Shown here: in pieces, positions 1,530-29,135 of the stretch | Position numbering within the stretch: position 1 is the first letter of the stretch | Layout of the letters: each line of letters opens with the position of its first letter | From: Hadesarchaea archaeon | Lineage (GTDB): Archaea; Hadarchaeota; Hadarchaeia; Hadarchaeales; Hadarchaeaceae | DNA: 42,500 bases | Direction of reading: 5' to 3' | NCBI GenBank assembly: GCA_030601675.1 | Contig: JAUWBN010000009.1 | Span: 1-42,500, forward strand | The notes under the pieces: model-generated | What the model saw: only the letters and a program-made list of their open reading frames with translations | The model's database searches: none | What the model was told of the DNA's origin: nothing | Position numbers and translations under genes: made by a program

Positions 1530-2447
1530 TTATTTCCCCTCCTGCTCGATAGCTGCGATGAATGCCTCCTCCAACCCTCCCGCTGGCTGAAGCAGGTCCA
1601 ACCTAACTTTTTCCTTTGTTATCAGTCCCACAAGTTTGGATTTAAATTTCTCTGGCTCAGAAGTGATGACTCTTATCTCATTATCCTCGTCCAGCCACGC
1701 TCGCTCAACAGGGGCCTCTTTCTTAATCAGCTTGAGTACTTTTTTATTATCTGAGGTTGAGACGATGTAAGACTCACCACCATATACATCAGCTAAACCC
1801 TTGATGCTATCTGATGTAACTATCCTGCCCTGATTTATTATTGTGACATAATCCACGTATTTTTCTAACTCAGTCAGGATATGGCTACTCACGAAGACGG
1901 TCATACCCTCCTTAGTGAGCTTCTCCAGAGAATCTATAATTGCGATTCTACCAACGGGATCGAGAGTTGCAGTGGGCTCATCTAAAATCAGTAACTCGGG
2001 TTCGTGAATCATAGCTTGGGCGAGACTTAACCTTCGTCGCATGCCCTCGCTAAATCCACCTATCTTTTTATCTTTGAATTTCTCCAGCTCAAGCCATTTC
2101 AAGAGATCCTTCGCTCTTTTCTCGACTTCCGAACCCATTCCAGCCATTTGCCCCATGTACTCCAAATACGCGAGGGATGACATTGAATCATAGAATATTG
2201 GGCGCTGTGGGGAATAGCCTATTACCTCCTTAGCAGCCAGAGTTCCGGCTCTCTCTCCCTTGATATAGGCCTCCCCCTCAGTAGGGTTAAGGGTGCCAAC
2301 AAGCATTCTCATGGTTGTCGTCTTCCCCGCCGCGTTAGGCCCCACAAACCCGTGAATGCGGCCTCCCTTAACCTTTAAGTTAACTCCGTCGACAGCCACT
2401 AACTTCCCGAACTTCTTCGTTAGATTCTTCGTTTCAATTATATTCAC
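1530..2447 (-). CDS. ABC transporter ATP-binding protein (DrrA/CcmA-like)
   Basis: Walker A GPNAAGKTT, signature GFSEGMRRRLSLAQAM, Walker B LLILDEPTATLDP. Confidence 0.93.
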   Translation of the reverse strand: MNIIETKNLTKKFGKLVAVDGVNLKVKGGRIHGFVGPNAAGKTTTMRMLVGTLNPTEGEAYIKGERAGTLAAKEVIGYSPQRPIFYDSMSSLAYLEYMGQMAGMGSEVEKRAKDLLKWLELEKFKDKKIGGFSEGMRRRLSLAQAMIHEPELLILDEPTATLDPVGRIAIIDSLEKLTKEGMTVFVSSHILTELEKYVDYVTIINQGRIVTSDSIKGLADVYGGESYIVSTSDNKKVLKLIKKEAPVERAWLDEDNEIRVITSEPEKFKSKLVGLITKEKVRLDLLQPAGGLEEAFIAAIEQEGK

Positions 2448-5400
2448 CTAATCCTCCCCCACACTCGTTTCACGAAACGCGGTATCCCCCACACTCTTTT
2501 CACGTAACGCGGTGCAAACAGCACGACAACCAAACACACTGCAATTACACCGAGTACCAAATCAAGGGAGGATCCGCCCCGAACATTTACATTCACTACA
2601 TCATAGGTGAATACCCCCTCTGAATTGACTGACTGGACAGTTATTTTGTGTTTACTTGGAGGAAGTCTCACAGTGGCGGAATTACCAGTAGTCACAACCA
2701 GTGAAAATCCATCTACTTTGACCGTCGTGACGCAGGCCTCCTCAGTGCTCCAGCTAATGGAAAGTGGAGATTCTTCCCCAAAGGACGTTATTTTGACGCT
2801 CTTCGTGGGATCAATCAGTACCAAGCTCGCATCGGACCCAAGGATACCTACCTGTTCCCCCATATCCAAAATCTCGGCAGGTTGTGAATCGAGTCCAGCG
2901 AGGGGTTCGCCCTCTTGAGGATCTATAACGTAGAAGGTAACGCTCCCATCCGTCAGAGCTACCACGCCAAGTTCGGGACTTCCATCCCCAGTAAAATCTG
3001 AGAGCTTCTTAGTGAGTATTCCCGGAGTCCCTGTTGTTCTTCCCCTCTCAACCTCGGTGATGGCTATAGTCTTCAATACCTCATCATTAGTTACATCATA
3101 AATATCTATTTTAGCTCCCTCTCCCCATCCACAGGTCTTAACCACGGCCAGTTCTTCCCTCCCATCCCCATTAATGTCACCAACAGACGCTGCGGGCATT
3201 GCTTGCTCGTAACCAAATTTCTCAAGAGGGCCCGAATCGCTGAAAATGTAGCTCCAAACCACCTCCGAGCTCGCATAGACAGAGAGTTTTGGACCGGCCT
3301 CCGACCACATCCTAAAGTTTATGGTGTCTTTTAAACCGTCACCTGTGAAGTCGCCTGCCGCCCAAGAGGTCCCCGCACCATCTCTGACAACGCTAAGCAG
3401 TATCTCTCCGGATTTAGGGGATAATACCGTCCATTGGCTTGGGGCGCCTTCAATATACGTGTCGAAAATGACTTCCCCGCATCCATCTCCGTCTAGGTCT
3501 CCTATTGAACTGATACGATTCCCGACGTGACGATCGGAACTTACTTCAGAACGAATCGAAAAACTCAACTCCCCTCCAGACTCGTTGGTTTCCAGAACCA
3601 CCAGATTGCGATCACTAGCGTGGCACACGAGATCCTTGTACCCGTCATCGTTAACATCATCTATGATTAGGTACCGCGCTTCCCAATGTTCCACCCAATC
3701 CCACCTATAGGCTGCTGGAGCATCGTCATGGTAAACGCGCTCCCACAAGAGCTCCCCGTTTTCACCGTCAATAATAAATACGCGCCCTCTTGAACCTACG
3801 AGGACATCTAAGGACCCATTTCCATTTATGTCTTCAGTGGATTCGAGAGAGAATACCCACAAATACTCTCCTTCTTCCGCCCAGAGATGCTCGCCATCCT
3901 CATTGACGAGTTCACGCTCCCAAATTACCTCCCCGTTATCTCCAGAGAAAAGGATCACCTTGGGGGAAGCTTGGGAGTCTTCCATCTCACTGGTTTCGAC
4001 TTCCCTGCACACTAGAACGTCGGCTCCTCCTTCCCCAAACATGTTTTCTACCTTAGAAATTCGAGTGAATCCGCCATTTTCGAGGAAATCCCTGAGTGGA
4101 AGAATTTTCGACCAGAGAACTGTTCCATTATCTCCGTCTCTCAGAATGAGGCTTCTGCTCCAAGTGAAGTCATCACTGGCTGCCTCAATGGAATAAATCA
4201 AAAAATCCTCGTTACCATCGCTCGTGAAGTCACCTTTCACTACGTTGAGATTGCTGATGCTTGGGAAGTCCCACAAGAACTCTCCATCAAAATCCGTGGC
4301 TACAAGACCGCCAGCTGAGGCCAACACAAGTCCATTCTCAAGCGCTACCAGATAGCTTTCTCCGGAAGCCGTAGCCGCCATCCCAATAGTGTTCTCGATG
4401 CTACCAGAACTGATATCTATCACAGAAATTGTAGCGCCCGAGTATACGAGTAAGCACTTCTCCCCACCTATGGAAGTGTAAACCAGGTTGCCAGCTTGAC
4501 TCATATCGACAGCCAGGTTCTGCCATTGAACCTCGCCCGTACTCCCCTCCAAAAGGTATAGGCCTAGTTGAGTTCCGCCATAACTACGGCCAGTGGGATT
4601 GGACTGAGGATCAATTGCCGCGACTATCTCTTCACTCCCATTCCCATCCACATCATCAATTATCGTAAGGCGTATGTTGAAGAAATTTGCGTCCGTCGGG
4701 ATGGTTGGATTCGCCTCATTTCCAAAAGGACCACCCCTGATCCCGCTCCCGCTTTCGTAGTACTGGAGCAGTAGAGCATCGTTGTATTGGAGAACCATCC
4801 TTTCCCATTCTACGTTCCCAGTTCCAGGGTCAACGAGCTGAACCATCCCATCCTCTGTGCTTACTGCCAATTTATTAGATCCAGACACTTGAATTGGCGC
4901 GATGTCCCAAACAGAACGGGCGGCCTTCCCCACTGACAGTCCTGACTCCGGGTTCTTGAGTTCAACGCTTCCCGCGAGTTGTCTTTTGAAATTAATCCCG
5001 CCGCTCGATGGATTAATTGAATAAAGGTATCCATCTTGAGTCCCTGCGAAAAGGGTGTCCCCCAATCTCGTCAGTTGCCAGACGTTAAGGGTGTGAGTTA
5101 CCTCCCATAGGGCTTCTCCGCTCTCACCACTAATCCCAACTATACTATGCCCAGCACTGACTGCAACATCACTCACGCCATCCCCATTCAGGTCCCCTAG
5201 GAGTTCCACGTCAAAAGGCTGAACTTGTCGATCTATGTAGCCAAGCTCCGTATCGTAGATCGCCATCGTGTGTGAATGGGACCACAAGACTTCTCCTGTT
5301 GACAAGTCATAGCACTTGATATTAGGGAAGTATGTCTCTTCAACAGCCAATACCACCCTGTTCTCGCCGAGTTTAGCGAAATCCCGCACAGAAGACGTCT

Positions 5401-5671
5401 CGATATAGGTCTCTAAGGTGTTATCTGAGAATACATAAAGCCCCTTGCTTGCACCGACAAGTAAATAGTTATCCACATAGGCCGGCTCAGTTGTGACACT
5501 ACCCTTCAAGGATATTGGAACAGAAGAATCATTCTGAGCTGCAGCACTAGGAATTGTGTTTGAAGAAGAAATAAGAACCGAACTCGAAAATGGGGACAGG
5601 GATACCAGTAAGACAGCCATGGAGAAAAAGGCAGTTATCAACACCTTCCATTTCCCCAAGCCCACACCCAT
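2444..5671 (-). CDS. Secreted/membrane-anchored beta-propeller (FG-GAP/PQQ-like repeats) protein with C-terminal TM
   Basis: N-terminal signal, many repeated D.NGDG/DVNDDG-type motifs, C-terminal hydrophobic segment plus basic tail; 4-nt overlap with ABC ATPase. Confidence 0.85.
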   Translation of the reverse strand: MGVGLGKWKVLITAFFSMAVLLVSLSPFSSSVLISSSNTIPSAAAQNDSSVPISLKGSVTTEPAYVDNYLLVGASKGLYVFSDNTLETYIETSSVRDFAKLGENRVVLAVEETYFPNIKCYDLSTGEVLWSHSHTMAIYDTELGYIDRQVQPFDVELLGDLNGDGVSDVAVSAGHSIVGISGESGEALWEVTHTLNVWQLTRLGDTLFAGTQDGYLYSINPSSGGINFKRQLAGSVELKNPESGLSVGKAARSVWDIAPIQVSGSNKLAVSTEDGMVQLVDPGTGNVEWERMVLQYNDALLLQYYESGSGIRGGPFGNEANPTIPTDANFFNIRLTIIDDVDGNGSEEIVAAIDPQSNPTGRSYGGTQLGLYLLEGSTGEVQWQNLAVDMSQAGNLVYTSIGGEKCLLVYSGATISVIDISSGSIENTIGMAATASGESYLVALENGLVLASAGGLVATDFDGEFLWDFPSISNLNVVKGDFTSDGNEDFLIYSIEAASDDFTWSRSLILRDGDNGTVLWSKILPLRDFLENGGFTRISKVENMFGEGGADVLVCREVETSEMEDSQASPKVILFSGDNGEVIWERELVNEDGEHLWAEEGEYLWVFSLESTEDINGNGSLDVLVGSRGRVFIIDGENGELLWERVYHDDAPAAYRWDWVEHWEARYLIIDDVNDDGYKDLVCHASDRNLVVLETNESGGELSFSIRSEVSSDRHVGNRISSIGDLDGDGCGEVIFDTYIEGAPSQWTVLSPKSGEILLSVVRDGAGTSWAAGDFTGDGLKDTINFRMWSEAGPKLSVYASSEVVWSYIFSDSGPLEKFGYEQAMPAASVGDINGDGREELAVVKTCGWGEGAKIDIYDVTNDEVLKTIAITEVERGRTTGTPGILTKKLSDFTGDGSPELGVVALTDGSVTFYVIDPQEGEPLAGLDSQPAEILDMGEQVGILGSDASLVLIDPTKSVKITSFGEESPLSISWSTEEACVTTVKVDGFSLVVTTGNSATVRLPPSKHKITVQSVNSEGVFTYDVVNVNVRGGSSLDLVLGVIAVCLVVVLFAPRYVKRVWGIPRFVKRVWGRIR

Positions 5672-9728: not shown

Positions 9729-11144
9729 ATGGAGTCAAAAACAGGGGTCAGAAAATTCGACCTAAACGTGGAAAAAATCTTGGAGGACTGGGAGGTCCAC
9801 CACGGAATCAGGGAGATAATAGCGAATGCGATAGATGAGGAGGTCCTTACGGACTGCAAACCTATGGAGATATCTAAGGATCGCGAGGGGGGCTGGCACT
9901 TCAGGGACTTTGGTCGGGGACTGAAGTACGAACACCTGACCCAGAAAGAGAGCGATGAAAAACTGAAGAACCCGCACGTGATTGGGAAATTTGGCATCGG
10001 GTTGAAGGATGCTCTAGCGACTTTCGATAGGCGGAAAATCAAGGTGTTCATCAAGTCCCGCCACGGGGAGATGACCTTGGGCAAGTCGGAAAAGCACGGG
10101 TTCGAGGACCTGATAACGCTGCACGCCTACATCCGCCCCCCGTCAGACCCGAAGTTCGTGGGAACTGAGTTCGTGCTGAAGGGGTGCACGGCCAAGGACG
10201 TCGAGAAGGCGAAGGACCTGTTCTTGATATTCTCCGGGGAGAAGGTGGTGGAGGAGACGAAGCACGGGGCCGTCCTGGAGAGGAAAGGCAGCAGCGCCAG
10301 GATATACGTGAACGGCGTCAGGGTCGCGGAGGAGGAGAACTTCCTGTACTCCTACAACATAACCTCGCTGACGAAGGCCATTAGGAAGGCGCTGAACCGG
10401 GAGAGGACGAACGTGGGCAGGACGGCCTACACGGGAAGGGTGAAGTCGATCCTGCTCGCCTGCGGGACGAAACCGGTCGCCCGCCAGCTCGTGGAGGACC
10501 TGAAGGGGTATCAAGATGGGACGCTCCACGACGAACTCGAATGGACCGATGTCGCCGTCCACGCGTGCAGGCTCCTGAACTCCCTCGAGCGGGTCGTCTT
10601 CCTAACCCCGGACGACCTCATGCGCGCGGGGTACATCGTCGACAGGGCCAAAGGAGACGGTTACCGGGTGGTCACGATACCCGAAAACGTGAGGGAAAAA
10701 ATCCACGGGGGCTTGGACGCGGCCGGCAAGCCCATGGTGGACCTGTCGGGCTTCCAGACCCAGTGGAACAAGAGCTTCAAGTTCGATTTCATCGACGAGA
10801 AGGACATGACGCCAAGGGAGAGAGAAATATTCGTGATGACGAAAGCCATTTTGAAACTCGCCGGTGGAAAGCCGAAATGCGTGAGGGAAGTAAAGATATC
10901 GAAGACAATGAGGATCGACCCCCTCTCCCTCAGGGAGTCCAGCGGCCTGTGGGAAGAGAGCACGGGCAAGATAATAGTGAAGAGGAGCCAGCTGGAAAGC
11001 CTGCAGAAGTACGCCGGAACGCTGCTGCACGAGCTGTGCCACGCCGAGAGCGGGACTCAGGACGTCACCGGCGAATTCGAGGACGAACTCACCTCCCTCG
11101 TCGGCGCGATAACCGCGAGATTTTTGGAAGACGAAGGTGAGTGA
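9729..11144 (+). CDS. GHKL (HATPase) protein fused to C-terminal HExxH metallopeptidase-like domain
   Basis: N box EIIANAIDE, G1 DFGRGL, G2 GKFGIGLKDAL; C-terminal LLHELCHAESGTQDVTGEFEDELT (HExxH); SD aggagga upstream. Confidence 0.85.
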   Translation: MESKTGVRKFDLNVEKILEDWEVHHGIREIIANAIDEEVLTDCKPMEISKDREGGWHFRDFGRGLKYEHLTQKESDEKLKNPHVIGKFGIGLKDALATFDRRKIKVFIKSRHGEMTLGKSEKHGFEDLITLHAYIRPPSDPKFVGTEFVLKGCTAKDVEKAKDLFLIFSGEKVVEETKHGAVLERKGSSARIYVNGVRVAEEENFLYSYNITSLTKAIRKALNRERTNVGRTAYTGRVKSILLACGTKPVARQLVEDLKGYQDGTLHDELEWTDVAVHACRLLNSLERVVFLTPDDLMRAGYIVDRAKGDGYRVVTIPENVREKIHGGLDAAGKPMVDLSGFQTQWNKSFKFDFIDEKDMTPREREIFVMTKAILKLAGGKPKCVREVKISKTMRIDPLSLRESSGLWEESTGKIIVKRSQLESLQKYAGTLLHELCHAESGTQDVTGEFEDELTSLVGAITARFLEDEGE

Positions 11145-11167: not shown

Positions 11168-13534
11168 TCAACCGTACTGCCATCGCAACTTCCCGCATGT
11201 GCACTGGAGTCTTTTTCGTGACTCTTGATTGGAAATCCACACCTTGTCGCCGCACACATCGCACTTGAACGCTTCAACTGCCTTTTCGCACACCTCGGCC
11301 AGCTTCTCGGCCTCCTTCTTGATCAAAGAACCAGTGTGTGAGCTGCGATTCCCCCATGTTATAATGAGTCGCTTGGCCTCGTCCCAAATACTTGACGGCT
11401 CGTCATATTTGGAGTACTTGTCAGGCTCCCCAGTCTTGATTTTGAATCGGTGGGGACCCTCCGAGATTAATGCCTCGAGGAATTCGACCGCAACGCGCTG
11501 ATCGTTCTTATCGCCCCGTCGGTACGGAAGCTTTACTTGTAGTTTTTCAATGGCAATCGATAGTTCTGTATCCATTGTCGCGCGGACCCTGTTGCCTGCA
11601 GCTTCCGCACTCTGCGGGATTAACGCTCGGGCATCCGAGAAAGAACTTCCGAAGGCGGCCCAAGTAATCCCGGTGATCGGATCCTTCCAAGGTTTGACAG
11701 CCTTGAAAATCCAGTTCTTTGCTGGTAGTCTGACTCGCAACTCAGTGTACCATTCCCTGTCGTGCGTGAACATTATAACTTGGTGGTCTGAGAACTCTTT
11801 AGTTAGCAAGTCTGCGAGCATGCCACGGTGTTCCCTGTCCAGACTGGACACTATATCATCTAAAATGATGAATCGTTCCTTGTCACGTTCCAACTTGGCG
11901 AGCGCTAAGAAAATGCAGAGCCCCAAACTGTTCCGATGACCCTCTGACAACGTGAGGCGAGGCGACGGTTGGTCGACACCATAAAATTTTAGACCGATGT
12001 CAATAGCCTTGTCTGTTTTTGGGGCGGCATAGAGATGAACTGATTCGATCGGTTCGTCTGGGTGCAACATTTCCCATAACCTCTGAACCTCGGCCGAAAT
12101 CTGTGTTAGAACCGCCTTGCTCTGTTTGCGAATCGTCTCTCGGGTAGCTTCCTCGCTCTTCTGCAGCGCTTGTAGCAGTGTTTTGATTCTGATGACCAAA
12201 TCTTGAATAATCGCTGATTCCATCTGTACCTTCGCTGCCCCTATTGCGTCCCGCGCATCCAGCAGTTTCTTGATTGAAGGCGGCCCCTTGGCGATTACAC
12301 TTTTGAGGTGCTTTAAAAGCGCCTTGGTTTTCTCCTCCAAATCGGCGGTCTCCACCTGAAGCGGATTGTGGCGGAGCATCTTGACATCAACACGCTGTAA
12401 AGCATCGAGCGCGGCGACACAGTCAGCTTGCTCAGGCATAGCTAGCCAGCTCTTCAGTTCCTCTTTCGAGAGAATTTTAATCGCGCTTTTGACCTCAACA
12501 GCAAGAGACGAGCTTGCCTCTTCGAGGACGCTTGCGGCTTCTCTGGCTGCATGCAGTTTCTCGAGTTCTGCCTGCACATGGTCCGTGAGTTCGGACGCAC
12601 GGATTACTCTGCCGCACGCCGGACATTCGATGTCGGCTTCGCCAGCTTCCAATGCTTTCAAGAACTCGCTCGTCTTTTCAAGTATTTCAAGCCGCTTTGA
12701 GATGACTTTGTTAAACGCTTGTGTTGCCCTCTGCTTGGCTTGAACAAAAGCCGTCAGCTTGTCATCCAAACCTCCTTCTTTCAGAAGGTCTTGGCAAGCT
12801 ATGTGGATCCTGATGATGGGATCTGCCTGCTCGATACGCGTAGTAACCGCGCTTTCCAACGCAACCAGCAAGTCTGGTATTGCCAAGCTCTCGTCCACCC
12901 CTAGGCGCTTTGCGTGTGGACCCAATTCGCGCTGGATTACCTCACGGTCTGTCGAACTGAAATTCTTCAGGACTGTCTCTTTCATTCCACATAGCTGGTC
13001 TTCCCTTATAGCGAGTTTACTGCGTTTCTCGATCCTGTCCCGGAGTTTTCTCAAGTTCTCGGCGGCGTTCTCGAGATGGCCCAGACCCAGCAGGGGAAGA
13101 AGAACGGAGTACTTCTCACCCTTCGACTTGAGGACGAATGCTGCGAGTTCGTCTTGGCGGAGTATAAAGCGCTCAACCGGCCACGACTGAATCTCATTTA
13201 GAAACTCTGGAGGACTACCCTTGAAGGTTGCTTTTCCGTTGGGTTTAATCTGCGCTTCAACGGCGCGATTCTGGTCGAAAAATATTCGGATTGCAGATGC
13301 TTCATCTTTAGGCGTGTGGGTGTTTCTTACTCCTTTTTCAAGGCGTTTTCCGCTGTATTCATGGGCGAGATGGTAGATTCGGCCGTCTGTCGCGATGTAT
13401 TCCATGGCATCAGTAAACGTGGACTTGCCAGCGCCGTTTGGTCCGTAGATAACAACGCTCTTACCCTCACTATCGAGCACTGTTTCTGAGGACGCGCCTC
13501 GAAACCATTTGAGGCTAATTTTGTGGATGATCAC
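11168..13534 (-). CDS. Rad50/RecF-like SMC-family ATPase with zinc hook (CPACG) and C-terminal zinc ribbon
   Basis: Walker A YGPNGAGKST, hook IECPACGR in coiled coil, signature LTLSEGHRNSLGLCIFLALAKL, Walker B FIILDDIVSSLD, tail CDVCG...CTCG; GTG start at 13534 with GGAGG 6 nt upstream. Confidence 0.88.
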   Translation of the reverse strand: MIIHKISLKWFRGASSETVLDSEGKSVVIYGPNGAGKSTFTDAMEYIATDGRIYHLAHEYSGKRLEKGVRNTHTPKDEASAIRIFFDQNRAVEAQIKPNGKATFKGSPPEFLNEIQSWPVERFILRQDELAAFVLKSKGEKYSVLLPLLGLGHLENAAENLRKLRDRIEKRSKLAIREDQLCGMKETVLKNFSSTDREVIQRELGPHAKRLGVDESLAIPDLLVALESAVTTRIEQADPIIRIHIACQDLLKEGGLDDKLTAFVQAKQRATQAFNKVISKRLEILEKTSEFLKALEAGEADIECPACGRVIRASELTDHVQAELEKLHAAREAASVLEEASSSLAVEVKSAIKILSKEELKSWLAMPEQADCVAALDALQRVDVKMLRHNPLQVETADLEEKTKALLKHLKSVIAKGPPSIKKLLDARDAIGAAKVQMESAIIQDLVIRIKTLLQALQKSEEATRETIRKQSKAVLTQISAEVQRLWEMLHPDEPIESVHLYAAPKTDKAIDIGLKFYGVDQPSPRLTLSEGHRNSLGLCIFLALAKLERDKERFIILDDIVSSLDREHRGMLADLLTKEFSDHQVIMFTHDREWYTELRVRLPAKNWIFKAVKPWKDPITGITWAAFGSSFSDARALIPQSAEAAGNRVRATMDTELSIAIEKLQVKLPYRRGDKNDQRVAVEFLEALISEGPHRFKIKTGEPDKYSKYDEPSSIWDEAKRLIITWGNRSSHTGSLIKKEAEKLAEVCEKAVEAFKCDVCGDKVWISNQESRKRLQCTCGKLRWQYG

Positions 13535-13814
13535 GAGATTCCTCCGGGGCGAGAGACTCGATGAGTTTGCCGGCAAGTTTGTTCAGCTTACCGGCGCTTA
13601 GAGGTTCGTCGAAATCACATTTCTGGGCAGTCGATAGCAGGAGTTCACGTGTAGTTGGGAACTCTATCAAGTGCTTGTCGAGGATACTCTCGATTACCGC
13701 CGATGTCGAGGCAGGAGCCGCGATTTGTGTAAGCGTGGGGCGCGATTGGATGAGTTTGTTTTCAGTCAATGATACCAAAATATACAGTGCGTGAAGATAT
13801 TTATTCCCTTCCAC
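13515..13814 (-). CDS. Small protein, candidate partner of the zinc-hook ATPase
   Basis: 99-aa ORF overlapping the ATPase start by 20 nt on the same strand. Confidence 0.6.
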   Translation of the reverse strand: MEGNKYLHALYILVSLTENKLIQSRPTLTQIAAPASTSAVIESILDKHLIEFPTTRELLLSTAQKCDFDEPLSAGKLNKLAGKLIESLAPEESRDHPQN

Positions 13815-19229: not shown

Positions 19230-22200
19230 ATGGCAAATGCTATGTATTATGAGAAGACCGATGTAGCCACGATGGAATCTGTCAAACAAATTCAAGAAGA
19301 GTTTCTCAAACGATGCCGGATTTTCCCTGCTGACTTGCGAGAGCACGGGCGGACGGAAATACACATTAGCTCAGGCGAGCAAGCTCGTTATATCCTAGAA
19401 CTTATTCAAAACGCGGACGATGCACAAACACCTGAACCGGGTTGCGACTCTGTTCAAACACGAGGAGAAGCCAAAATTGTGTTCATACTTACGCCAACGA
19501 AACTTTACTGCGCCAACGGGGGTTACCCCCTCACCCATAAAGGATTCCGTGCTATCTGCCACATGTGTCTCAGCCCAAAGGTGGGCCGACAGATTGGGTA
19601 CAAAGGGGTCGGATTTAAATCAATTCTAGAGTTAGCAAGTGAAGTGGAAATTTTCTGGCCACTTGGAGCCGCCAAATTTTCGCGGGAGGCCACCTTTGAG
19701 TTGCTGAAATCCGAAAGGTCCAAACTTTCGGAACTCGTATCTTTTGAGGATGTGCCGCTTCTACGTTGCCCATTCCAAATGGACCTGCAGAGGGAATTAG
19801 AGGGGGACCCGATTCTCCGGAAGCTTTGGGAAAACAATGCCACTGTGTTCCGATTTACACTCTCCCCGCAAACCTTGATAAAGGAAGTTCAGAACCGGCT
19901 CGGAGAAATCGCCCCTTCTACTCTTCTTTTCATGAACAGGTTGGCTTCAATCGAAATCGATGAAAAAGCGGTTGGGGGGATCCGACATGCGTTTAAACGA
20001 AACGATGGCCCTAACCAATCATCTCTTCCAAACAATGGCCAGCGGGTGACCATCGAACACAAAGGTGGCAGTTCGTCTTGGATTCTTTATTCGGAAACTT
20101 TCGATTTGGAGGAGGCTGTGAAGAAGAAACTCCCTCGCGATTGGCGAGATAAGGATTCGGCACAAATCACATTCGCTTTCCAGACGGATTCTCATTCAAA
20201 TCATGCAATGCCATTTGTAGGAAATGGTGGGCACCCCAATTTACATGTCTTTTTCCCCACGAATGAACGTCTTCCCATAAGAGTGCTGGTGCATGGTACT
20301 TTCCGAACGAACGTGGACAGACGTCTACTTACGGAAGACCTCGATGAAGAGTTTTCATACAACTCATTTGTATTGCAACGATCGGTGAATATTTTCATCG
20401 AGAAGGTCATGCCGCTGATACTCGAGCACCTCGATGACCCAGCCGCCATCTTGGATTTTTTGACGCCCCCTGACCCAGATAGCCTCACAGGTTTTTCGAA
20501 AGCGTTTTGGGAGAAACTTAAAAACACGCTAAGAAAACGTCGTTGTATCCCAGCGCATAAAGAGGGCTGGATTTTACCCACGCACGCTGTTATCGTGCCA
20601 AAAGGGGTGCCTCTTGAAAATTTCAAACGCTTGCTGGGAGAGCCCGGAGGGGGAAAGAGATTCTGCCACAATTCTGTTGAGTCCTTCCCCCACCGTGCAA
20701 ATACCGCGATACTGCTCGGTGCCCAGGTTTTTAACCCTTCAGAATTTTTTGATTTACTAGAGCCCAAAATCTCATCACTTTCTCCATCGCAAGTTGCCTC
20801 GGCCTATGTAATAATCGAAAAGTTAGACTCCTTGGTTCCTAATCAATCGGAATTCAGAGAAAAGGCAAAACGAGCCGAGATACTGCGGTTGTCTGGTGGT
20901 CAACATGTTTCAGCTGAGAGCGTGACGGTTGGGGGGCCAATCTTCTTCCCGCCAGCTACTGAGACTTTTGAAATTAACATCCCGCAGGGCATACGTTTAC
21001 GGTTTTTGGATTCACGGATCACGGAAGCTTATCGTAAAGTAGTTGAGGGACGCATAAGTGGCAGTTTTCTTGCACGCGCAATAGGTGTAGAAGAATTTGC
21101 AGCGTCCCCGATACTAACAAATGCAGTTATCCCCGCCGTTAAACGGTACTGGAAAAACAATAAAGAGTTCAATCCTCGATTATTACTACAATTTCTCTTT
21201 CAACTTTTTGAAGACAAATTTCGAGAGGGGAGCCGTCCGCTGGAGTTAACCGATAAGCTAAGAGCACTTGGCATCACACCAGTGCCCACCACCAAAGGCG
21301 ACTTTACCCCAGCTTTCTCGGTTTACGCATCACAGGACTGGACTAAAAACGACGATTTAGAAGCCCTCTATAGTTTCGATCCAGCGAGCCGCTTCCTCGA
21401 GCCACCTAATCAAGCATGGGATGAGACCGAACGCTTGGCGTGGGAAGGCTTCTTCAAATGGTTGGGGGTGAATTGGCTTCCTAGACTAGTGCCACAGTTC
21501 GGGCCCGGAGAGGAAAACCGCTGGCAGACATGTGTGTGGGATCGACAGACCCGAACGTGTATAACTAGCCCGCACTCTAGGTTACCGCGTTGGAATGATT
21601 ATTGCGCGGAAATTTCTTCCAAGTCTCGAGAAATTCCTTATGATGACCCCGTGGGGCGGCCGCGCTGCGATTTCAAATCTTCCTTTGCCCTTGATAGGTT
21701 TGAAAGAGTGATCCGAGATTCAGAGCGGGCAAAGCGGCTTTATAGGGTCTTGGCGGAGAACTGGACTAGCTATGCGCAATTTCTAAACTGCGAACTAAGC
21801 TTTGTGAAGACGACAGGGGGTCCAAAATATTCGTATGATTTTGAATCATATTTTAACTGGGCGCTGAAGACTTTCGCATGGATTCCCAGCACCCACGGTT
21901 TCCGGTCACCGAGGGAAGTCTTCGAGCGAGCCCCAGAACTCGAAAGGTTATTTGGAAATCTTATTCCTTACATTACAACACCAATCGTTGAGGCATCTTT
22001 CGCAGCCTACCTTGGCATTCGAAAATCATTCGATGACATGTCCTCAGCCGATTGGTGGAAGATTGCGCTTTCCATGCCTGAACTGATAGAGCGTAAAGTA
22101 GAGTCTATCAAGCCAATCTACCGTAAAATGTTACAAGCGATTGATGAATCTACAGATTCTCCCGAACGCCAGCAATTCTTAAAACAAGGAAAATTATTTT

Positions 22201-23561
22201 GTTATGTGAATGGTAAAATAGAAGCTGTCCATCGTGGGCAAGTGTTCTATGCTGACGATACCGAATTGCTTGAGTTGTTTTGTAATTATGTTCCGATTTT
22301 TGTGATGATGCATGAGGAAAGAAGAGGTACAAAGGTTTGTAGAGTATTCGACGCCCCCAAACTAAGCGATGAGGTACTCCGCACTCCAGCAATTGGAGAT
22401 ACCGACACAGCTCTCTCCCAAGACTTAGATCGTTATCTCGACTCAAGAAAGTCGTTGATATTAGCCCGTCTTTATGTGGAACGGCCAAAGTCTGAGAAAG
22501 AAGATATTTCCAAACTCAAGCGTATAACGATAAAGGCCGTTAAGGAGCTAAGCGAGACTTATAAGTTGGATGCTCTCGATGTACCAATTGAATTAAAACA
22601 GGAGAAAAAACGAGCACTCATTCAAAAGGAAGACGAAAATCGCTACGCTTTGTTAGTCAATTTAGCTGCGCTTCCAGTAGGACGGGGTTCAGAAGAAGTA
22701 TGGAATGATGATTTGGCTTCCGAAGTTGCCAAGCAGTTAACTAACTATCTTGAAACCAATTTGGCGTCTGATTTTCTCTCGATACTCTCCCGCCCTTACG
22801 AGATAGCAAAGAGGGCTTTAGCTTTGAGTAATGTCAGGAACGAAGACATTACGTACTGCGAACAACGACTTGCCGCCCCCGAGCAACCTCCTCCGGTTAC
22901 CCTCCCCGAACCACAACCGCCTGAAGAGACATCGCTGGTCCCGACAGTCGGTGTTTCGCCCGAACCACCCGCACCCGCTCAGAGTCCCGCGGCCGGATTG
23001 AAATTATGGCAACCGGAAGAGCTAGGGTTTGGAACCCCCTCTGTATTAACTCCGCCTCCCGCTACAGGAGGACAGGACGGTGCCGCGGAGGGCAGAGGCG
23101 GCACACCTGGGCGTCGTCCCATTCAGGAAAGGGATCTTATCGACAAGGCCGGAATGCAGATTGTGATGGCGTGGGAGATGGAGCGAGAGAAACGGAGAGT
23201 CAGGGACGTTTCAGACCCGAGTTTACGCATGGGTTATGACATTCAATCGGTAGGTGAAGACGGATTGAGGATGATTGAGGTCAAATCCTCAGGTAGTGAT
23301 ATAAGGGTGATTGAAATAACAGCCAATGAATGGGAGACTGCTCGGAAGCCAGAAAACCGAGAGCGATACTATGCATACCGGGTGCGCCATTTGGACAAAA
23401 AATACAATCGACCCCCTAGCATATTGCGAATTAAAGATCCATACGGTCAATTCACCGCTGAGCCGACCATGTTCAAAATTAACATCAACACATTCAAGGA
23501 CAAAATTGAAATACTTCCACTCGTAGATAGACCAGGAACGAGTAAAGGAGAACAAAAATAG
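19230..23561 (+). CDS. Sacsin-like HATPase protein with C-terminal DUF3883 (PD-(D/E)xK-like) domain
   Basis: ARYILELIQNADDA, CANGGYPLT, GYKGVGFKSI sacsin-type HATPase motifs; C-terminal GYDIQSVGEDGLRMIEVKSSG DUF3883 signature. Confidence 0.85.
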   Translation: MANAMYYEKTDVATMESVKQIQEEFLKRCRIFPADLREHGRTEIHISSGEQARYILELIQNADDAQTPEPGCDSVQTRGEAKIVFILTPTKLYCANGGYPLTHKGFRAICHMCLSPKVGRQIGYKGVGFKSILELASEVEIFWPLGAAKFSREATFELLKSERSKLSELVSFEDVPLLRCPFQMDLQRELEGDPILRKLWENNATVFRFTLSPQTLIKEVQNRLGEIAPSTLLFMNRLASIEIDEKAVGGIRHAFKRNDGPNQSSLPNNGQRVTIEHKGGSSSWILYSETFDLEEAVKKKLPRDWRDKDSAQITFAFQTDSHSNHAMPFVGNGGHPNLHVFFPTNERLPIRVLVHGTFRTNVDRRLLTEDLDEEFSYNSFVLQRSVNIFIEKVMPLILEHLDDPAAILDFLTPPDPDSLTGFSKAFWEKLKNTLRKRRCIPAHKEGWILPTHAVIVPKGVPLENFKRLLGEPGGGKRFCHNSVESFPHRANTAILLGAQVFNPSEFFDLLEPKISSLSPSQVASAYVIIEKLDSLVPNQSEFREKAKRAEILRLSGGQHVSAESVTVGGPIFFPPATETFEINIPQGIRLRFLDSRITEAYRKVVEGRISGSFLARAIGVEEFAASPILTNAVIPAVKRYWKNNKEFNPRLLLQFLFQLFEDKFREGSRPLELTDKLRALGITPVPTTKGDFTPAFSVYASQDWTKNDDLEALYSFDPASRFLEPPNQAWDETERLAWEGFFKWLGVNWLPRLVPQFGPGEENRWQTCVWDRQTRTCITSPHSRLPRWNDYCAEISSKSREIPYDDPVGRPRCDFKSSFALDRFERVIRDSERAKRLYRVLAENWTSYAQFLNCELSFVKTTGGPKYSYDFESYFNWALKTFAWIPSTHGFRSPREVFERAPELERLFGNLIPYITTPIVEASFAAYLGIRKSFDDMSSADWWKIALSMPELIERKVESIKPIYRKMLQAIDESTDSPERQQFLKQGKLFCYVNGKIEAVHRGQVFYADDTELLELFCNYVPIFVMMHEERRGTKVCRVFDAPKLSDEVLRTPAIGDTDTALSQDLDRYLDSRKSLILARLYVERPKSEKEDISKLKRITIKAVKELSETYKLDALDVPIELKQEKKRALIQKEDENRYALLVNLAALPVGRGSEEVWNDDLASEVAKQLTNYLETNLASDFLSILSRPYEIAKRALALSNVRNEDITYCEQRLAAPEQPPPVTLPEPQPPEETSLVPTVGVSPEPPAPAQSPAAGLKLWQPEELGFGTPSVLTPPPATGGQDGAAEGRGGTPGRRPIQERDLIDKAGMQIVMAWEMEREKRRVRDVSDPSLRMGYDIQSVGEDGLRMIEVKSSGSDIRVIEITANEWETARKPENRERYYAYRVRHLDKKYNRPPSILRIKDPYGQFTAEPTMFKININTFKDKIEILPLVDRPGTSKGEQK

Positions 23562-24610: not shown

Positions 24611-25861
24611 TTGGAGAGGAGAATAGTCTGTCTGGAAGGCCTCAATGGATTTGAGTTTGAGGATCTTTGCACGGAGCTTTTCAAAAGATTGGGGCACAAA
24701 AATGTGAGACTTGCACCAAGAGTAGCGGATACGGGCAGAGACATATTAATGGATGTCGTCACTCCATCTAGAAAGATCGAGCCAGTAATAGTCGAGTGCA
24801 AGCACCACTTGGGTAAAACCATCGGAAGACCGGTTATCCAAAAGCTTCATTCCGCGATCATAACCTTCTCCGTTAAGAGGGGGTTAGTGATAACTACTGG
24901 ACACTTCAGCGATGAAGCCAAAAAGTACGCAAAAATAATCAAAGATGTAAGAATAGAGCTTATAAATCTCTCAGATTTGAAAAGACTTGGAGAGGGGGTT
25001 GGATTCGAGATTTATGAAACTTCTGCTGATGTGCCCTCTCAAAGTTTTCACATATGCAAACCTAGCGAGCTCGATAAAATTTTCAGAAGAGAAACAAATC
25101 GAATGATAAGCTACCCAAAATCTCCCAAGGAAATAATTCAATTTTTAGGACACGATGTTCAAGTTAAGCCTGCATATCTCCTAACTTATTCGATAGATCG
25201 TGACTTCGTGACTTCCACTGGTAGAATGATTCATTCAATTCATGTTAATGATGCTCAATTACTAGCGGATGGGAGAAACGGAGAACTCTACGCTGACAAC
25301 GTGTCAGAATTTCTTGGAGGATGTGAAAAAATGCCCCTAAAAAATGTGGAGCGTTTGAGGATTCCAAGGCCTCCTTTTCTACTTAGTGAAAATGAAATCA
25401 GGAAAGGGACCGTAAAGGAGCTGGTACAGCGTCACACCAAACCCGTTGTTTATCATGCGGGGAAAGGAGACGGAAGAAGGTTCGAGAAAGTTTGCTCGCC
25501 ATCTTCTAGGGATATAAAAATATTATATGCTGAGAAAGTTTATGTACCTAAATGGGAGCTCAGATACAAGGCTTTGAAGACCTCATACTCCGTAGCGGTA
25601 TATGCTAAACCTAGAGATTTATTGCTCCTCCAAAATGATTTTGAGAAATGTTCGGTATGCAAGAAAGAAATAGCGCCAGGAAAACGCATTATATGTAACG
25701 ATTGTGGAAAAATAGGACACGCTGAATTTTTCACGAAGCATTCATTTAGATGTAAGAATTGTAAGAAAACCATATGTAGAAGTTGTGCTATTGAAAAGAG
25801 AGAATGGCTCATCCTTAAGAGAAGGTATTGCAGGGAATGTTATAGAAGGATACTCAAGTAA
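24611..25861 (+). CDS. Mrr-type restriction endonuclease with C-terminal zinc-finger region
   Basis: GFEFEDLCTELFKRLGHKNV..DTGRDILMDV...VIVECKHH; four CxxC pairs at C-terminus; TTG start with AGGAGG upstream. Confidence 0.82.
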   Translation: MERRIVCLEGLNGFEFEDLCTELFKRLGHKNVRLAPRVADTGRDILMDVVTPSRKIEPVIVECKHHLGKTIGRPVIQKLHSAIITFSVKRGLVITTGHFSDEAKKYAKIIKDVRIELINLSDLKRLGEGVGFEIYETSADVPSQSFHICKPSELDKIFRRETNRMISYPKSPKEIIQFLGHDVQVKPAYLLTYSIDRDFVTSTGRMIHSIHVNDAQLLADGRNGELYADNVSEFLGGCEKMPLKNVERLRIPRPPFLLSENEIRKGTVKELVQRHTKPVVYHAGKGDGRRFEKVCSPSSRDIKILYAEKVYVPKWELRYKALKTSYSVAVYAKPRDLLLLQNDFEKCSVCKKEIAPGKRIICNDCGKIGHAEFFTKHSFRCKNCKKTICRSCAIEKREWLILKRRYCRECYRRILK

Positions 25862-26810: not shown

Positions 26811-29135
26811 TCATTCCCTTGGGTACACCTGAAATTCATAGCTAGCGCTCGCATCCCAAAGAGTGTAGCTGAAATAACCAAAAATGTCGAGATTAAGTTC
26901 AAGCTCCGCCTCTACTCCAGCAAAAACTAACCATGAATTATTTTCCATGTGATATTGGACCCGCAAATAGGGCTTAATAGTCCCCTCTGGCCCAAAAATA
27001 GAGTAAAGATAAGCTTGGACAATGCCTTTAAAGTATGGCTTGAGTTCAATGTTGCCAGTCTGACCTACTTGACTGCTGCCATCAACTTCAATTCCAACCA
27101 AGATTCTGTATTCCACGTGTATTATTACTGGAACTGGGCCTGCAAAAATCCAGATATCATGTTTCCCCGATTTAATCGTCACTTCTGCCTCACCATCTAT
27201 ACTCCAATAAGTGAGTTGCCCTCCACTATCCCATGTCGCTGCAACCTCTGCGGATTCTAATTTGAAGTAAAGCTCCTTACTCCCCTCAGAAGTTTGAGTG
27301 AAGCGGAATACAAAATCTGAGAACTCAATACCTGTACCGAAATCAAGACCGCCCACTACTTTTTGAAGAGAACTTAAGTCGAAGTCCTCTACGGTGGTGG
27401 GCTTCTCCTCAATAAATAACCTGCTTACCGAGCTTTCGGATTCTTTGAATCTCGCGTTTCCTACAAATCTAGCATATGCCTCCACGTCCAAATCAAACCA
27501 GTCCATCGGCTTAGCGGTCCAGGTTATGGAGAAGTAGCCATTGGCATCGGTGGTATCAAAATCTAGACGATCATGGGGGATAGGCCAATCGTTGGCATCG
27601 TAGAGATAAATATTTACGTTAGCGATCCCTTCACCTGTGTCAACCTCTGTTAGGCGCCCTGTAAAGATAACATTACTGCCTTCCAAGACGGTAGCAGGTG
27701 GGCTATCAAGTGTTAGTATTGTACCTCTTTTTCCTGTCACTGTGATTGTGTACGTCAGGCTCTGCGATGAAGCCCAGTACGTCGACCCTCCATATTTCGC
27801 GTAGACTTCTATCTCCCTGCTCCACAAGTCCATCGACTTGGCGGTCCAACTAATGCTGAAGTAGCCGTTGCTGTCTGTGGTATCCGAAGCCATCAAATCA
27901 TCAGCATTGGGCCAAGTATCCGCCTCATAAATCTTGATTTCGGCATTAACAATTCCCTTTCCAGTGTCGTCCCTAGTCAGTCGACCGGTGAAGGTTACGG
28001 AATCTCCCTTATACACACTGCTCGAAGGGGTATCTAAAATCAGCGTGGTGCTATGTTTCTCCGAAACCGTGAAGGAGTAATACGAGCTCACGGATGACGC
28101 TAGGGTCGTCGACCCGTCGTACGTTGCCTTAACTTCGACGCTCAGATCTTCAACATCCATCGGCACGGCGGTCCATGTAATCGAGAAGTAGCCGTTGCTG
28201 TCGGTGGTGTCCGAGGCCATGAGGTCATCGCCGATTATGTCATCGTCCCAGATCTTGACGGTGGCACTCGGCACCCCGGCCCCCGTGTCGTCCCTGGTCA
28301 GTCGACCGGTGAAGGTGATGTTCTCCCCTTCAGGGACGCTGCTCTGCGGTTGATCCAGCGCCAAAGTAGTGCCCGGCTTCTCGGTTATGTTGATGGTATA
28401 CACGCTACTCATGGACGACTTGAGCTGGGTCGAACCATCGAACTTCGCGACCGGCTCGGTCGTTGAATCCCATGGATCCGCCGCTTCGGCAGTCCATGTA
28501 ATCGAATAATCGCCGTTGCTATCGGTGGTACCAGAGGCCAGAAGATCGTCTGTGTCGGGCAAGGTATCGGAATCCCAGATTTTAACGGTGACGCCCTCCA
28601 CCCCAGCTCCCGTGTCGTTTCTGGTCAGTCGACCAGTGAAGGTCACGGTCGTGCCCTCGACCGCGGTGCTCGGGGCGCTTAAGGTCAGGGTGGTGCCCGG
28701 CTTCTCGGTTATGTTGATGGTATACACGCTACTCATGGACGAGTTGAAACTGGCAGTCCCTTCAAATTTCGCGACTGGCTCGGTCGTTGAATCCCATGGA
28801 TCCGCCGCTTCGGCAGTCCATGCAATCGAGAAATAGCCGTTGCTATCGGTGGTACCAGAAGCCAGAGGATCATCGCTATCAGGCCACGTATCGGAATCCC
28901 AGATTTTGACGGTGACGCCCTCCACCCCAGCTCCCGTGTCATTTCTGGTCAGTCGACCGGTGAAGGTGACTGTGCTACCCTCTGGTGCCGCACTCGGGGG
29001 GGCATCTAGCGTTAAGGTTGTGCCCGTACCAGCCACCACCGTTCCAACGGTTACGTAAGAGGACAGAAACAGAAACGCTAAAGCAAGTGCTGCAACTCGT
29101 GCTATAAAAACTCTCTTTTTCACCCAGCCCCTCAC
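26811..29135 (-). CDS. Secreted protein with five tandem Ig/transthyretin-like repeats plus C-terminal beta domain
   Basis: Signal peptide; five ~105-aa repeats beginning (G)TTL.LD.P.S.V.EG..V.FTGRLTR.DTG. Confidence 0.82.
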   Translation of the reverse strand: MRGWVKKRVFIARVAALALAFLFLSSYVTVGTVVAGTGTTLTLDAPPSAAPEGSTVTFTGRLTRNDTGAGVEGVTVKIWDSDTWPDSDDPLASGTTDSNGYFSIAWTAEAADPWDSTTEPVAKFEGTASFNSSMSSVYTINITEKPGTTLTLSAPSTAVEGTTVTFTGRLTRNDTGAGVEGVTVKIWDSDTLPDTDDLLASGTTDSNGDYSITWTAEAADPWDSTTEPVAKFDGSTQLKSSMSSVYTINITEKPGTTLALDQPQSSVPEGENITFTGRLTRDDTGAGVPSATVKIWDDDIIGDDLMASDTTDSNGYFSITWTAVPMDVEDLSVEVKATYDGSTTLASSVSSYYSFTVSEKHSTTLILDTPSSSVYKGDSVTFTGRLTRDDTGKGIVNAEIKIYEADTWPNADDLMASDTTDSNGYFSISWTAKSMDLWSREIEVYAKYGGSTYWASSQSLTYTITVTGKRGTILTLDSPPATVLEGSNVIFTGRLTEVDTGEGIANVNIYLYDANDWPIPHDRLDFDTTDANGYFSITWTAKPMDWFDLDVEAYARFVGNARFKESESSVSRLFIEEKPTTVEDFDLSSLQKVVGGLDFGTGIEFSDFVFRFTQTSEGSKELYFKLESAEVAATWDSGGQLTYWSIDGEAEVTIKSGKHDIWIFAGPVPVIIHVEYRILVGIEVDGSSQVGQTGNIELKPYFKGIVQAYLYSIFGPEGTIKPYLRVQYHMENNSWLVFAGVEAELELNLDIFGYFSYTLWDASASYEFQVYPRE
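28380..28985 (-). repeat. Near-identical tandem DNA repeats encoding Ig-like units 1 and 2
   Basis: Long shared blocks, e.g. cttctcggttatgttgatggtatacacgctactcatggacga occurs twice about 325 bp apart. Confidence 0.75.

Follow-up and report, generated by a model that had tools for sequence, protein, structure and literature searches.

A single gene of a Hadesarchaea archaeon joins the motifs of a GHKL ATPase to those of a zinc metallopeptidase, and the locus raises the question of what a protein of this construction does. The window, meaning the whole stretch of DNA analysed, comprises 42,500 nucleotides of contig JAUWBN010000009.1 (assembly GCA_030601675.1), and it belongs to a small metagenome-assembled genome of 0.94 Mb and 35 contigs in which archaeal ribosomal protein S19e is present. 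The open reading frame has exact bounds and encodes 471 residues, and its ATG is preceded by a strong ribosome-binding site, AGGAGGAAGTAAAACATG. An earlier note, made from the DNA sequence, had placed a GHKL ATPase and an HExxH metallopeptidase-like domain on this one chain, a description supported by the motifs, the structural model and the homologues; that the protein has this architecture together with an intact predicted zinc-protease site is close to certain. The positions of the features are given in Table 1.

Table 1. Features of the gene, of its predicted protein and of the neighbouring gene, in window coordinates.
Feature	Position	Strand	Evidence
Whole gene: Hsp90-like GHKL ATPase with C-terminal minigluzincin-like metallopeptidase	9729-11144	+	ORF; near-full-length homologues; AF2 pLDDT 90.9
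GHKL N box, REIIANAIDE, aa 28-37	9810-9839	+	R28, E29, N33, D36 and E37 100% conserved
GHKL G1 box, DFGRG, aa 60-64	9906-9920	+	D60, G62, R63 and G64 invariant
GHKL G2 box, GKFGIG, aa 86-91	9984-10001	+	G86, F88, G89 and G91 invariant
Probable Hsp90-type middle domain, aa 151-351	10179-10781	+	PDB profile; Foldseek; hhalign
NRERTNVGR loop, aa 223-231, candidate catalytic-arginine loop	10395-10421	+	N223, R224, E225 and R231 invariant
Minigluzincin-like metallopeptidase domain, aa 352-471	10782-11141	+	AF2 pLDDT 94.5 for the domain modelled alone; fold matches; Wss1 sequence match
HELCH zinc-binding motif, aa 434-438, predicted active-site helix	11028-11042	+	H, E and H invariant, 83/83
D445, candidate third zinc ligand, second His +7, like D194 of NleC	11061-11063	+	Invariant, 83/83
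E451, alternative third zinc ligand, start of C-terminal helix (448-470)	11079-11081	+	Invariant, 83/83
Rad50/SMC-like ATPase, 802 aa, candidate partner	11168-13576	-	Pfam SMC_N 4.8e-17; PADLOC LmuB 5.3e-30

Domain architecture and the predicted zinc site

The N, G1 and G2 boxes of the GHKL domain are all complete, as the earlier note had reported, and they are invariant among the aligned homologues, although the weight of this conservation is limited by the N-box and G2-box motifs having formed part of the homologue search pattern. Together with fold matches to HtpG, GyrB and MutL, the boxes place the protein in the GHKL ATPase superfamily, and 61 of 65 family members match the Pfam family HATPase_c_3. 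The best Foldseek matches of the full-length model are to HtpG/Hsp90 (E 5.9e-9), followed by GyrB, MutL and MORC3, and the N-domain profile is likewise closest to HtpG in hhalign (P 95.5%, versus 51% for GyrB and 22% for MutL).

The middle region, whose kinship the earlier note had missed, points to the same relative. When a profile of aa 150-356 was compared with the PDB, the ten best matches were all to the middle domain of Hsp90-beta, at a modest E of 0.0026, and among the plausible matches the region pairs only with Hsp90 middle domains. The hhalign alignment with HtpG is in register (E 0.01-0.02, versus 0.08-0.37 for GyrB and MutL), and a GyrB- or MutL-type transducer was rejected because HtpG fits better in both comparisons. 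The region is probably an Hsp90-type middle domain lying between the ATPase and the protease, rather than a spacer, and its NRERTNVGR loop may be equivalent to the SRE of HtpG, which is seen in L108. The profile, fold and hhalign results therefore lead to a reading of the protein as an Hsp90-like clamp in which a protease replaces the dimerisation domain. The likeness to Hsp90 and HtpG extends over the N-domain profile, the full-length fold, the modest middle-domain match and the conserved arginine loop, whereas neither the window protein nor the family members match Pfam HSP90 (PF00183) above the curated cut-off, and the HExxH domain stands in place of the C-terminal dimerisation domain, with no hhalign match of the C-terminal part to HtpG. 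HtpG was not detected in the window's own genome.

The AlphaFold model, built with 65 sequences, confidently places HELCH inside helix 425-441 and E451 in helix 448-470, in agreement with the zincin-like helix anticipated for the motif; HELCH lies about 343 residues after the G2 box, not the 280 or so first given. All ten of the domain's best PDB fold matches are minigluzincins, namely selecase, proabylysin and projannalysin (Foldseek probability 0.97-1.00, with modest E-values of 0.013-0.038 and a TM-score of about 0.5), and the domain is predicted to share the compact fold of about 110 residues of abylysin and selecase, with HExxH in a helix of an alpha/beta zincin fold. At the level of sequence, Wss1 ranks first among PDB entries in a profile comparison (E 0.22) and the S. 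pombe WLM domain second (0.44), neither being near significance, and these are followed by an unrelated protein, astacin and AIP56. Sub-threshold Pfam matches of the domain among the members comprise SprT-like, DUF6782, M76, MPTase-PolyVal, M85 and WLM, of which SprT-like is the commonest (15/65), and no member exceeds the curated cut-off for SprT-like or WLM (best E 0.0031 and 0.036, respectively).

Wss1 and Spartan have been described as minigluzincin-like, and Wss1 as a protease that DNA activates and that acts on DNA-protein crosslinks (PMC4559962, PMC5557861). The predicted compact fold, the HExxH helix and weak sequence similarity are shared with Wss1, Spartan and SprT, as well as with the minigluzincins abylysin, jannalysin and selecase, but the present domain has an ATPase clamp as its fusion partner in place of ubiquitin-like, SHP or zinc-finger parts. 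The third zinc ligand of Wss1 is a His at +6 (PMC5557861), a position that is not His here, and the three-His site of Wss1/WLM is thus missing; the 83 aligned proteins have instead an invariant Asp at +7, the spacing found in NleC, whose zinc site comprises H183, E184, H187 and D194 (PMC11475232). D445 (+7) and E451 (+13) are the candidates for the third ligand in this family.

The C-terminal domain is probably an active protease. The alternative that it is no protease, being either metal-free or another zinc hydrolase such as a YbeY-like RNase, is highly improbable: YbeY structures do appear among the lower fold matches (1oz9, E 0.15; 7y7o), and a homologue on a Halorussus plasmid (L011, 6998-8437) has lost HExxH and kept all the GHKL boxes, a natural protease-dead copy, but the catalytic Glu of HExxH is invariant in the alignment, the ten best fold matches are proteases, and the metal motif of YbeY differs from the HExxH site.

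Conservation, spread and phage relatives

Relatives were collected by a profile scan of genome contigs with the patterns KFG[VI]G[LI]KD and RE[IL][IL]ANA[LI]D, which are ATPase motifs only. The scan returned 228 relatives, and the best 80, which are nearly full length and 47-70% identical, represent numerous phyla of bacteria and, among archaea, Bathy-, Thor-, Loki-, Aenigma-, Nano- and Nanohaloarchaeota and Nitrosopumilus. H434, E435, H438, D445 and E451 are invariant in all 83 aligned proteins, as are the GHKL residues, N223-R224-E225 and G459; the conservation of the H/E/H triad, on which the earlier note had made its proposal depend, is thereby upheld. Because the scan used ATPase-motif patterns only, the search cannot account for the conserved C-terminal site, and a chance HExxH, expected in about 1 in 80 random proteins of like size by a rough estimate from typical residue frequencies, is ruled out by the conservation of the motif, D445 and E451 throughout the alignment. 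Compared with its nearest relatives, the gene shows a dN of 0.23-0.32 and a saturated dS, and it is under strong purifying selection.

The full-length architecture, whose extent the earlier note had left to a search of homologues and neighbourhoods, is widespread. Full-length homologues of 41-52% identity are found on plasmids of Bacillus, Priestia, Croceicoccus, Euzebya, Salinibacter and haloarchaea. Matches were obtained in 2 of 100 relatives, the second being weak and partial, and a full-length copy is present in just 2 of 160 genomes of one archaeal phylum. Archaea and bacteria are intermixed on a maximum-likelihood tree, with at least seven forced label changes, and the partner of the window protein is a protein from Nitrospiria (100/89). 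The patchy distribution, the plasmid copies and the mixing of domains in the tree indicate that the gene is patchy and mobile.

Several members depart from the common layout. L014 and L015, both plasmid proteins, are longer versions (959 and 1105 aa) with the same C-terminal motif, HExxHxxSGAxDRTREFExAL. On a Citrobacter plasmid, the protease end stands alone in an IS-rich region, annotated as a hypothetical protein (L012, 7001-7348); it was rejected as a free-standing protease, being a remnant that covers only residues 385-469 with IS elements around it. A Sulfobacillus homologue (L069, 8001-9593) ends in a UvrD/PcrA tudor/CarD-like domain, comparable to those of RNA-polymerase-binding repair proteins. 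An aromatic/basic C-terminal tail, such as GFWxRLFG, which the window protein lacks, is present in 16 of 84 homologues, including L040, L043-L045, L048, L049, L060, L091 and L095, and is possibly a membrane or partner anchor.

Tails that could bind membranes would suit a general chaperone-protease that depends on ATP and deals with damaged or misfolded proteins, unrelated to DNA and an Hsp90-like counterpart of FtsH or Lon, as would the joining of an Hsp90-type clamp to a zinc protease and the solitary position of most copies. Such a role is nevertheless clearly unlikely, given a patchy, mobile distribution unlike that of housekeeping proteases and the recurrent Mre11-Rad50 operons described below. 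FtsH also carries an ATPase and an HExxH zinc protease on one chain, but its motor is an AAA+ ring and it is anchored in the membrane, whereas the present protein uses a GHKL/Hsp90-like clamp.

Relatives of the clamp also occur in phages. Four viral contigs carry a near-full-length homologue, a Moorella phage encodes a distant full-length one (25% identity), and a single-protein scan of viral contigs gave no match. Some phage proteins, about 360-400 aa long, possess the clamp but lack HExxH, and others, of 435-493 aa, have the motif; since phage and plasmid forms exist both with and without it, the HExxH domain is a module that a clamp can gain or lose. One relative on a viral contig (L102) has HEFAHDFGEDGTVSH at the same position with another ligand spacing, suggesting that the zinc site may vary among phage forms.

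Among viruses, the main fold match is to the RIIA family, many members of which were recovered in a BFVD fold search, and T4 rIIA orthologues consist of a GHKL ATPase with a highly variable C-terminus (PMC7824862). The protein might accordingly be related to phage RIIA, serving as a GHKL protein in counter-defence or in guarding the membrane, and its HExxH domain would then be one C-terminus among many exchangeable ones. This is improbable: the fold of the GHKL and middle domains is shared with T4 RIIA, and some phage relatives possess HExxH, but RIIA C-termini differ, the likeness is by fold only (strong fold matches, with a weak PHROG RIIA sequence match of E 0.12), the HExxH domain is kept in 83/83 aligned members of the cellular family, and the close relatives are cellular or plasmid-borne, the exceptions being a single long phage protein and a small number of viral contigs.

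Gene neighbourhoods

The neighbourhoods of the family are mixed, and most copies stand alone, with no adjacent Mre11-Rad50. An operon in the order Mre11/SbcD, Rad50/SbcC and clamp-protease gene, a partnership missed in the earlier note, recurs in Aenigmatarchaeota/Nanoarchaeota (L029, L030 and L036), Nitrosopumilus (L041) and Novosphingobium (L089 and L090), on one strand and with gaps ranging from a 1-base overlap to 63 bases. The Rad50 proteins of these operons are of three kinds (570-577, 809 and 1024 aa), and the three operon-bearing groups occupy separate parts of the tree. Among immediate neighbours, AAA_23 (8/143) and SMC_N (7/143) are more frequent than among control genes, which were taken near housekeeping loci (at most 1/142 each; Fisher p 0.019 and 0.034, respectively); when genes farther away in the family's own loci serve as the comparison, some of them being SbcC of those very loci, the AAA_23 enrichment is not significant (8/143 versus 2/121, p 0.086). 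A constant small operon partner was sought across the family and rejected, such partners being shared only within sub-clades. A common protein of 166-169 aa is encoded directly upstream of the gene in one genome each of Gemmatimonadota and Chitinophagaceae (L020, 2384-2890; L046, 2819-3316).

In the window, a Rad50-like gene lies convergent, tail-to-tail, 23 bases from the stop codon of the clamp-protease gene. Its product has a CPAC zinc-hook-like motif at aa 318-321, and a CxxC...CxC stretch is present at its C-terminus. PADLOC recognised no LmuA among the adjacent proteins scanned, and with the LmuB-like gene convergent the pair does not form a Lamassu operon; the clamp-protease itself matches neither canonical Lamassu nor any other PADLOC system. 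Further downstream lie a gene for a 1443-aa sacsin-type GHKL and NOV_C protein that strongly matches TmtA of the Tiamat defence system (19230-23561, +; PADLOC E 1e-122) and, beyond it, one for a protein with an Mrr-type restriction endonuclease domain (24611-25861, +).

These neighbours would fit an anti-phage or anti-plasmid effector whose clamp senses invasion, alone or via a Lamassu-like SMC sensor, and sets the protease loose on proteins of the phage or the host, in parallel with GHKL-gated nucleases. The very patchy distribution, the transfers between archaea and bacteria, and the plasmid relatives that stand beside restriction-modification, Piwi or OLD-like genes are in keeping with such a role. 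A precedent is the Shedu protein VcSduA, in which a GHKL clamp precedes a C-terminal hydrolase and which is read as an ATP-gated effector (PMC12137116), the hydrolase being a nuclease there and a predicted protease here, and a peptidase domain is found among Lamassu effectors (PMC10586767). The defence role is possible but doubtful, given that the protein has no PADLOC match and no constant partner gene, that a family 47-70% identical with many invariant residues displays no toxin-like turnover, and that the LmuB-like gene is convergent and without a recognised LmuA; the partners in other lineages are Mre11-Rad50 pairs, and their operons point to DNA processing.

Two features of the wider window may be recorded. 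The GC content of the 14-28 kb block, at 0.36-0.48, is below that of most of its surroundings, suggesting an island. Large predicted surface proteins are encoded at 26811-29135 (-), with repeated transthyretin-like/Big_3_5 domains, and at 2444-5671 (-), where an FG-GAP/PQQ beta-propeller protein adjoins an ABC-2 transporter.

Proposed function and significance

The reading preferred here, with a probability of roughly 0.4, is that of a clamp-protease, gated by ATP, which together with Mre11-Rad50 frees DNA or its ends of bound proteins, perhaps in defence. The GHKL N-domain and the Hsp90-type middle domain would form the ATPase clamp, and the C-terminal part would act as a Wss1/Spartan-like minigluzincin zinc protease. 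On binding ATP, a dimer clamp would close around its client, a misfolded or DNA-bound protein, and closure would present the client to the zinc site for cleavage. Where a Mre11-Rad50-type partner is present, recognition of the DNA end or of blocked DNA, and the nucleolytic cut, would fall to it, and the clamp-protease would remove the protein part of the block. The earlier note had spoken of an effector logic with an ATP-gated clamp; a toxin or defence weapon would be one possible form of effector. The architecture, the invariant catalytic residues, the predicted folds, the purifying selection and the recurrence of the operon are results of the computation; ATP gating, protease activity, dimerisation, a DNA-bound protein substrate and joint action with Mre11-Rad50 are inferred.

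The clearing of DNA-bound protein jointly with Mre11-Rad50 is put forward tentatively, at somewhat less than even odds. The UvrD/PcrA tudor-type domain of the Sulfobacillus member counts in its favour; counted against it are the small number of Mre11-Rad50-adjacent members, the non-significant Wss1 matches, the missing +6 His and, in the window, a Rad50-like gene that is not co-transcribed and that in PADLOC matches LmuB, a defence protein, best. DNA clearance and defence do not exclude each other, because Mre11-Rad50-like and SMC-like machines serve defence too (PMC10586767). A more specific proposal, that the protein is a mobile prokaryotic protease of DNA-protein crosslinks, or roadblocks, driven beside Mre11-Rad50 by an Hsp90-type GHKL clamp and not by an AAA+ ring, is speculative and rather unlikely; one chain would then, with the same low expectation, join the remodelling and cutting that are divided in eukaryotic Cdc48-Wss1.

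No Pfam, NCBIfam or PADLOC family spans the architecture, in line with the earlier note, which had given no characterised function for it, and RefSeq-type annotations of the relatives read 'ATP-binding protein' or 'hypothetical'. Open-access literature on GHKL/Hsp90 proteins with a metallopeptidase or a defence role yielded no description, although subscription journals may hold one, and the paper on prokaryotic MORC proteins names no peptidase (PMC2292703). The family is uncharacterised and consists of scattered archaeal, bacterial and plasmid proteins that combine an Hsp90-like clamp with a small zinc-protease domain.

To our knowledge, all known ATP-dependent proteases are powered by AAA+ motors. 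If a clamp of the GHKL/Hsp90 type does feed or license the zinc protease built into its own chain, regulated proteolysis would have an engine of another kind, and the idea is easily tested on a protein that consists of one chain of 50 kDa. Were the protein a defence effector, a protease would join the growing set of GHKL-gated effectors. If, as preferred here, it acts with Mre11-Rad50 on protein-blocked DNA, it would be an ATP-gated prokaryotic counterpart of Wss1 and Spartan, and the clearance of DNA-protein crosslinks in archaea and bacteria would become directly testable.
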